32,933 nucleotides of DNA from Marivirga sp. (GTDB lineage Bacteria > Bacteroidota > Bacteroidia > Cytophagales > Cyclobacteriaceae). The DNA lies in NCBI RefSeq assembly GCF_024636815.1, contig NZ_JAGXGF010000034.1:1-32933 (forward strand), given 5' to 3'. Positions 32,223 through 32,933 of the stretch are shown here, piece after piece (positions within the stretch are counted from its first letter, which is position 1; every line of letters starts with the position of its first letter). Below the pieces are notes generated by a model. The model searched no databases. It saw only the letters and a program-made list of their open reading frames with translations, and was not told the DNA's origin. The position numbers and the translations under genes were made by a program.

Positions 32223-32612
32223 TTATCCGCCCACTATTTCCTTTAAATTATTAATCAATCCTTCCCAAACTTCATACTGCTCTTGCTCGTCTTCAAAATC
32301 TGAATAATCTACTACTTTCATGTACATAGATTGAGTGAGTTCATTTTCATCTAAATGAATTTCAACAAATGCTGGATCATCCTCATCTCCTTCTTCCGGA
32401 AATTCAAATTTAACAAATTGATTTACCCGATGACCAGCCATAACTGCAGGGTGATCCTCATCATCATAAATGAAATTATATTCTTTATCTTCATTGATAT
32501 TAACATCATCTGCAAACCATTGAGATAAGCCGCTAGCTGTACTTATATAAGGGTACAACATTTTTTTTGAGGCGTTAATTTCGAAATCACCTGTGAATTT
32601 TTTCAAGCCCAT
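32223..32612 (-). CDS. AHSA1/START-like (SRPBCC) domain protein
   Basis: FTGDFEINASKKMLYPYISTASGLSQWFADDVNI...EVWEGLINNLKEIVGG. Confidence 0.85.
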   Translation of the reverse strand: MGLKKFTGDFEINASKKMLYPYISTASGLSQWFADDVNINEDKEYNFIYDDEDHPAVMAGHRVNQFVKFEFPEEGDEDDPAFVEIHLDENELTQSMYMKVVDYSDFEDEQEQYEVWEGLINNLKEIVGG

Positions 32613-32687
32613 AATCAGTTCTTTTTTTGTGGTTGATAAGTTATGATTAAATATGATATATCACAATAAATTCTTTTTCATTTTTTT

Positions 32688-32719
32688 TTGGAATATGAAA
32701 TCATAATTCATTATGTTTG
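32688..32719 (+). promoter_or_regulatory. Bacteroidota-type promoter of the tRNA cluster
   Basis: TTG (32688-32690), 21-nt spacer, TATGTTTG (32712-32719), about 66 nt before the tRNA-like sequence. Confidence 0.65.
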
Positions 32720-32785: not shown

Positions 32786-32865
32786 GGCGAGGTAGCTCAG
32801 TTGGTTAGAGCGCAGGATTCATATCCGCTAGCTAGCGGACGGCAGTTTCAAATCTGCTTCTCGCA
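32786..32865 (+). pseudogene. tRNA-Met(CAT)-like sequence with disrupted anticodon arm
   Basis: GGCGAGG-TA-GCTC-AGTTGGTTA-GAGC-G-CAGGA-TTCATAT is a canonical 5' half. The expected TCCTG stem and variable loop are replaced by TCCGCTAGCTAGCGGA; T-arm GGCAG-TTTCAAAT-CTGCT has an 8-nt loop; acceptor partner TCTCGC. Confidence 0.7.
32825..32839. repeat. Core of the perfect 16-bp palindrome TCCGCTAGCTAGCGGA (full span 32824-32839)
   Basis: Self-complementary by direct reading; sits where the tRNA anticodon 3' stem should be. Confidence 0.9.
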
Positions 32866-32902
32866 TTTAGTTTGTTTGAGTATTTGATTAGTGATATTAT
32901 TT

Positions 32903-32933
32903 GGCGAGGTAGCTCAGTTGGTTAGAGCGCAGG
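32903..32933 (+). tRNA. tRNA (probably Met-CAT), 5' part only, truncated by window end
   Basis: GGCGAGGTAGCTCAGTTGGTTAGAGCGCAGG is identical to the first 31 nt of the 32786 tRNA-like sequence. Confidence 0.7.

Follow-up and report, generated by a model that had tools for sequence, protein, structure and literature searches.

This locus raises the question of how a tRNA-Met gene came to carry a perfect palindrome where the 3' strand of its anticodon stem should be. The window, that is, the whole stretch of DNA that was analyzed, is an entire contig (C113) of 32,933 bases, and it terminates within a second tRNA-Met copy; the break falls in repeated tRNA sequence, and a repeat is a place at which an assembler can be expected to stop. 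The genome amounts to 4.0 Mb in 242 contigs and is 88% complete. The features of interest lie at the end of the window, and are listed with the evidence used for each:

32223 to 32612, minus strand: 129-aa gene, marker of the orthologous locus in other Marivirga genomes (gene order)
32687 to 32719, plus strand: candidate promoter of the Bacteroidota type, made up of TTTG at 32687-32690 and TATGTTTG at 32712-32719 (sequence, genus alignment, established consensus)
32786 to 32823, plus strand: 5' part of a tRNA-Met, comprising the acceptor 5' strand, the D-arm, the anticodon 5' strand and the loop up to CATA (same as the 5' half of intact tRNA-Met genes of the genus)
32824 to 32839, plus strand: perfect palindrome TCCGCTAGCTAGCGGA, standing in for ACCCTGAGGT, the anticodon 3' strand plus variable loop (sequence, congeners, phylum-wide copies)
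32840 to 32866, plus strand: degraded 3' half, with a T-arm with an 8-nt loop and an acceptor 3' strand in which the partner of position 1 is mismatched (sequence, Rfam, genus alignment)
32867 to 32902, plus strand: AT-rich spacer from the pseudo-tRNA to the second copy (sequence, genus alignment)
32903 to 32933, plus strand: second tRNA-Met copy, start only, as the contig ends (Rfam, contig, congeners)

The tRNA-Met-derived sequence thus spans 32786-32866, and its 5' part terminates in ...CAGGATTCATA. A previous sequence-only reading had described a tRNA-Met-like gene with a perfect 16-nt palindrome followed by a T-arm with an 8-nt loop, and a second copy from 32903; both are present, the latter cut by the contig end. 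Its statement that the palindrome takes the place of the 3' stem is correct for the stem but incomplete, for relative to an intact gene all of ACCCTGAGGT is replaced, variable loop included. The region does not qualify as a functional tRNA gene: ARAGORN called no tRNA in it, the Rfam tRNA model scored 24.5 bits where its gathering score is 29, and the pseudo-tRNA lacks what defines a functional tRNA, namely a cloverleaf with an anticodon stem that scores above the detection threshold. The upstream promoter that it proposed is plausible, as TTTG (32687) and TATGTTTG (32712) fit the Bacteroidota -33/-7 promoter consensus, and the -7 stretch is invariant across the genus alignment. The product of the 129-aa gene is presumably a START-like domain protein, judging from its sequence.

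The palindrome occurs once in the window, where none is expected (100 shuffles). Counting it genome-wide, as had been suggested, revealed exact copies at three places, whereas an unrelated 16-mer would be expected about 0.001 times in 4 Mb; the palindrome is not unique. The elongator-type tRNA-Met 5' half has no other occurrence in this genome, and an initiator tRNA-Met is present elsewhere in it.

The orthologous locus was compared in nine other genomes of the genus (G001 to G009), of which G009, Marivirga arenosa ABR2-2, is a finished chromosome. The palindrome directly follows the tRNA-Met 5' half in five of the nine (G001, G003, G005, G006 and G009), so that the suggested comparison with relatives recovered the same structure. 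The order in these congeners is the 129-aa gene (minus strand), the pseudo-tRNA, about 35 nt, an intact tRNA-Met, a terminator, an 85-aa ORF, a truncated palindrome-bearing tRNA and a terminator. The tRNA-Met remnant behind the ORF bears the same palindrome as the pseudo-tRNA. A terminator follows the intact gene in the congeners and is absent from the spacer at 32867-32902. The element is intact in G001 (where the structure is split over two contig ends), G005, G006 and G009, and partly hidden in G003, where an N gap covers part of the ORF; the ORF unit is present twice in G005, G006 and G009. In G004 and G007 the upstream pseudo-tRNA is absent and a decayed element lies downstream, while G002 and G008 have one tRNA-Met and nothing else. 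Occupied, decayed and empty alleles are therefore found at one site, as is characteristic of homing genes, and the decayed and empty loci fit the homing life cycle. Because the contig ends before it, the ORF would lie outside the window and out of sight of the sequence-only reading; beyond the contig end we expect an intact tRNA-Met, a terminator, the ORF and a hairpin-marked remnant. Among the matches listed in a PF01541 search, this genome has no tRNA-Met-type gene of this kind, and the congeners suggest that the species nevertheless carries one. We also considered a genuine unusual tRNA, on account of a selenocysteine-like call by ARAGORN in G005; this was rejected, as no second genome gave such a call and other genomes show decay of the acceptor and D-arm.

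The 85-aa ORF encodes a GIY-YIG nuclease (PF01541, above cut-off). The core Y, Y, G, R, H, N and E positions of the domain are invariant in the alignment of these nucleases. The protein consists of one domain of 85 aa and has no DNA-binding tail such as T4-type enzymes possess. Its closest solved sequence relatives are the UPF0213/SLX1-type single-domain proteins 1ywl, 1zg2 and 7wme of the PDB; the similarity is weak (E 7e-5 to 1e-3), and these entries imply no link to tRNA genes. Viral contigs yielded no phage relative with a narrow query, and no match assigned the nuclease to a defence system or to a named family. The gene is under purifying selection, with a dN/dS of 0.06 to 0.18 between Marivirga lineages, and frame-broken copies also exist.

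To place the locus in a broader context, we scanned 85,462 species genomes for the nuclease and obtained 80 loci, nearly all in Bacteroidota, the rest being in Balneolota with one in Cloacimonadota; the genes encode 80 to 130 aa. A sense tRNA lies at most 300 nt upstream of the nuclease gene in 55 of the 68 loci with at least 300 nt of upstream sequence, and in 53 of these it is a tRNA-Met; tRNAs elsewhere in the same stretches were seen in two loci only. Downstream, a tRNA-derived piece begins at or soon after the nuclease stop codon in 49 of 58 testable loci. Most of these downstream copies read ...CATA-[TCCGYY nnnn RRCGGA]-C and continue with the 3' half of the tRNA, the 5' half often being absent, and the strict form C(A/T/C)TA-[16-nt hairpin] is found in 44 loci. 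In tRNA-Met the position of the hairpin is fixed throughout the phylum, after CATA and before C. Upstream arrays of hairpin-marked tRNAs resembling that of the window exist in distant genera (L242, L251, L252 and L261). When 395 genomes of the class were scanned separately for the hairpin motif, 22 contained it and none contained its reversed control. Among 30 motif stretches, some of which overlap, a tRNA-Met is present in 24 and a GIY-YIG gene within 800 bp in 16; since the motif includes tRNA letters, nearness to tRNA-Met is partly by construction, which does not apply to the hairpin or to the nuclease. Seven stretches (L237, L249, L250, L253, L255, L257 and L258) hold hairpin-marked tRNA-Met copies adjoining an intact tRNA-Met, and no GIY-YIG gene was detected in them as fetched; we read these copies as remnants or gene-less copies.

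The usual form of the element is thus X-M-Y-ORF-x'-hp-Y, where X-M-Y is the intact tRNA, M being the anticodon 3' strand plus variable loop, and where the second 3' half carries the hairpin (hp) instead of M. The hairpin itself is constrained. In 42 distinct sequences, 99.6% of the cells of the six-pair stem are paired, against a mean of 94.9% in shuffles, and none of the slid registers comes close. The outer four pairs are invariant; in the inner two, changes that affect both partners number 15 (3.2 in shuffles). The loop is mostly of 4 nt, sometimes of 2 or 3, and its sequence varies while the stem covaries. When hairpins from the same locus are paired, 73% of the pairs are identical, whereas shuffles give 16% (0 of 10,000), and this greater likeness within than between loci is as gene conversion predicts. 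In 17 of 38 loci, the 30 nt that follow one tRNA 3' end nearly match those that follow the other; in the rest they differ. This indicates that the duplicated arm varies in extent, and sometimes includes the terminator.

The association is not limited to tRNA-Met. In the genus and family, small GIY-YIG genes lie directly behind tRNA-Glu, Asn, Asp, Met (both kinds), Leu, Val, Ala, Arg and Pro genes, and in front of tRNA-Ser and tRNA-Arg genes. Tandem units of about 360 to 400 bp are common at these loci, such an array being headed by its only intact tRNA. Nearly all the tRNA-linked genes are followed, or in a mirror form preceded, by a partial copy of the same tRNA in which an arm is replaced or interrupted by a hairpin, located in the anticodon arm (Met, Val, Asn, Asp, Arg), the T-loop (Glu, Leu) or the D-arm (Pro). 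The mirror form was found for Ser, Arg and fMet; in it the hairpin copy precedes the ORF and the intact tRNA follows (L134, L153 and L185). The genome of the window has two further elements: a tRNA-Val 3' half with a terminator and a GIY-YIG gene at a contig start (C197:89-433, L029), and a mirror-form tRNA-Ser element (C230, L134) whose marked copy has its hairpin in the anticodon loop. At two other loci (L137, about 1529-1590, and L124, about 2018-2085, oriented), the T-loop of the last tRNA-Val copy in each array is broken by an unrelated insert of about 50 nt.

Nuclease lineage and tRNA identity go together: a tree of 60 domains requires 15 changes of tRNA identity, against 36 with shuffled labels, and tRNA-linked and tRNA-less genes fall on opposite sides of a branch with an SH-aLRT support of 99; the tree rests on 77 columns only, and many of its forks are unresolved. 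One clade adjoins both elongator and initiator tRNA-Met genes, so that a target common to the two would be expected. The longest block that these genes share at the loci is TCATAACCCnnAGGTC. Intact tRNA-Met genes read CATA-ACCCnnAGGT-C and marked copies CATA-TCCGYYnnnnRRCGGA-C; ACCCnnAGGT, the sequence replaced by the hairpin, is the core of this block. Its removal is the strongest indirect evidence that M may be the nuclease target.

Taken together, these data make it probable that the feature in the window, a hairpin-marked tRNA-Met pseudogene, belongs to a free-standing homing-type element of the GIY-YIG kind that is specific for tRNA-Met. The nuclease would cut tRNA-Met genes within M or close to it. 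With an element-bearing copy as template, repair would then run through the ORF and end on the second Y, acting as the right homology arm, so that the gene would spread to just outside an essential tRNA, which is left undestroyed. By deleting the target, the hairpin would spare the second-Y arm from cutting. Re-cutting of the element's own tRNA could produce the tandem ORF-hp-Y units, and a duplicated tRNA, once cut and repaired from the hairpin copy, would become X-hp-Y, that is, the pseudo-tRNA of the window. The origin put forward by the sequence-only reading, duplication followed by palindrome replacement, would then be right in outline. The intact tRNA beside the nuclease keeps the presumed target, and self-cutting must therefore be tolerated or repressed. 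The mirror form is what is expected if the marked copy serves as a left homology arm, and it argues against a role in RNA processing or as a terminator. The hairpin also exceeds what destruction of a site needs, and its conserved fold suggests a further role.

The most serious alternative, which we nonetheless consider improbable, is that the palindrome is a mobile REP-like repeat moved by the GIY-YIG protein, with tRNA copies as its preferred landing site. The same 16-mer does lie in the T-arm of a pseudo-tRNA-Ala (L131), in pseudo-tRNA-Glu copies (L069 and L151) and in a few non-tRNA places. The pseudo-tRNA-Glu copies (G005:C2:78965, L069, and G001:C249, L151) have a double T-loop hairpin with the 16-mer in the acceptor, and within the genus the 16-mer has thus passed from one kind of tRNA element to another. 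At G000:C201:15549 it forms the core of an apparently ordinary intrinsic terminator (GCATCCGCTAGCTAGCGGATGC plus a T run), apparently unrelated to tRNA. A repeat-moving activity would also be in keeping with the sister clade of small tRNA-less GIY-YIG genes that sit amid CGTC-type palindromic repeats in Marivirga (L130, L132, L135, L138, L139, L141 and L147). The tag CGTCAT[TC]CC is found within 200 bp of 7 of 13 tRNA-less loci and of 0 of 17 tRNA-linked loci; such repeats are said to be without a dedicated transposase (PMC3733652), and the sister-clade nucleases are candidate movers for them. Against this alternative, the tRNA-Met hairpin occupies one position in dozens of genera, it replaces sequence rather than being inserted, and exact copies are few. 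The earlier suggestion of a landing site for a palindromic repeat family therefore stands as to recurrence, but the recurrence is at one exact tRNA-Met position beside GIY-YIG genes, and not at scattered sites. REP/RAYT systems and CGTC repeats (PMC3733652) likewise associate short hairpins with a small nuclease gene, but REP/RAYT systems comprise high-copy dispersed palindromes and an HUH tyrosine transposase; here the hairpin is fixed in a tRNA copy, at low copy number, and the linked gene is a GIY-YIG gene.

We regard as less likely still, and as doubtful, that the hairpin-marked tRNA acts at the RNA level, as a decoy for the nuclease or tRNA-Met or as a regulator of either. The covariation of the stem with a variable loop would suit such a role, as would the probable location of the marked tRNA behind a conserved promoter. 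Yet downstream copies that lack the 5' half cannot form a tRNA-like fold, the acceptor is broken in congeners, the predicted folding is modestly better than in shuffles (z -2.3), and in mirror-form loci the copy precedes the gene. The extended RNA in need of processing that had been envisaged for the window finds no support, since the downstream copies often lack the 5' half. Finally, an ordinary tRNA pseudogene or an assembly artefact with no connected system, which the contig break within a repeat, the degraded 3' half and the missing tRNA call might evoke, and which had been raised as a possible assembly error, is refuted as a whole account by the same structure in independent congener assemblies, including the finished Marivirga arenosa ABR2-2 chromosome, and by the phylum-wide recurrence, and is hardly credible.

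Returning to the homing-type element, its nearest known relative is phage SegB: in T4 and T6, SegB is a free-standing GIY-YIG homing endonuclease of tRNA clusters (PMC13096335, PMC2988022). It makes its cuts inside tRNA genes, and drives the amplification of tRNA plus nuclease segments in tandem (PMC13096335). In both cases a GIY-YIG nuclease gene adjoins tRNA genes, and SegB provides a precedent for cutting in tRNA genes and for tandem amplification. The element described here differs in being chromosomal, encoding 80 to 130 aa, keeping to one tRNA identity per lineage and being paired with a hairpin-marked tRNA copy; the SegB study (PMC13096335) reports no isotype preference, and is not known to describe a marked copy. 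As the SegB family is defined, phage-borne and with a DNA-binding region besides the GIY-YIG domain, the element is outside it, being a single 85-aa domain with no viral-contig match under the narrow query. The SegB motif found by experiment, RAWTSGAAC (PMC13096335), corresponds on the other strand to a T-loop sequence, and the Glu and Leu hairpins sit in the T-loop. A precedent for a look-alike site that is bound but uncut is the I-TevI operator, which resembles the homing site, is without the cleavage sequence, is spared, and lies beside the nuclease gene (PMC2988022). The marked copy is comparable, as a second homing-site look-alike spared from cutting beside the nuclease gene, but the I-TevI site is an autorepressor site in an intron, whereas here it is a tRNA half, usually after the gene, with the target replaced by a hairpin. 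Genomic islands that integrate into tRNA genes by means of tyrosine recombinases also show an intact tRNA followed by a second copy of its 3' end; in contrast to their integrase and att repeats, the units here are of about 360 to 400 bp and hold the GIY-YIG ORF only, and in the duplicate a hairpin has taken over the site of an internal part of the tRNA.

By its sequence features, the element would work like a free-standing GIY-YIG homing gene, and is a candidate member of that kind. We give about even chances to the broader proposal of a phylum-wide Bacteroidota class of tRNA-gene homing elements of minimal size (about 0.4 kb), every lineage being devoted to a single tRNA identity, that spread next to an essential gene by means of a hairpin-'vaccinated' copy of it and convert duplicated host tRNAs into immune pseudo-tRNAs. 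This family of tiny selfish elements is apparently unreported: none of the open-licence papers searched describes GIY-YIG genes that are chromosomal, linked to tRNAs and accompanied by hairpin-marked copies of these, an absence that is not proof. If this interpretation is true, a selfish element homes on essential tRNA genes without breaking them, and places cut site and protection side by side in the DNA, so that a comparison could reveal both target and immunity. Homing by tRNA-linked GIY-YIG genes, known from phages, would then extend to bacterial chromosomes, and would explain tRNA fragments and tandem small GIY-YIG genes of Bacteroidota that have so far had no explanation. The family would also offer compact nucleases with a natural specificity for tRNA sequences, and its sister clade a candidate mover for repeats to which none has been assigned.
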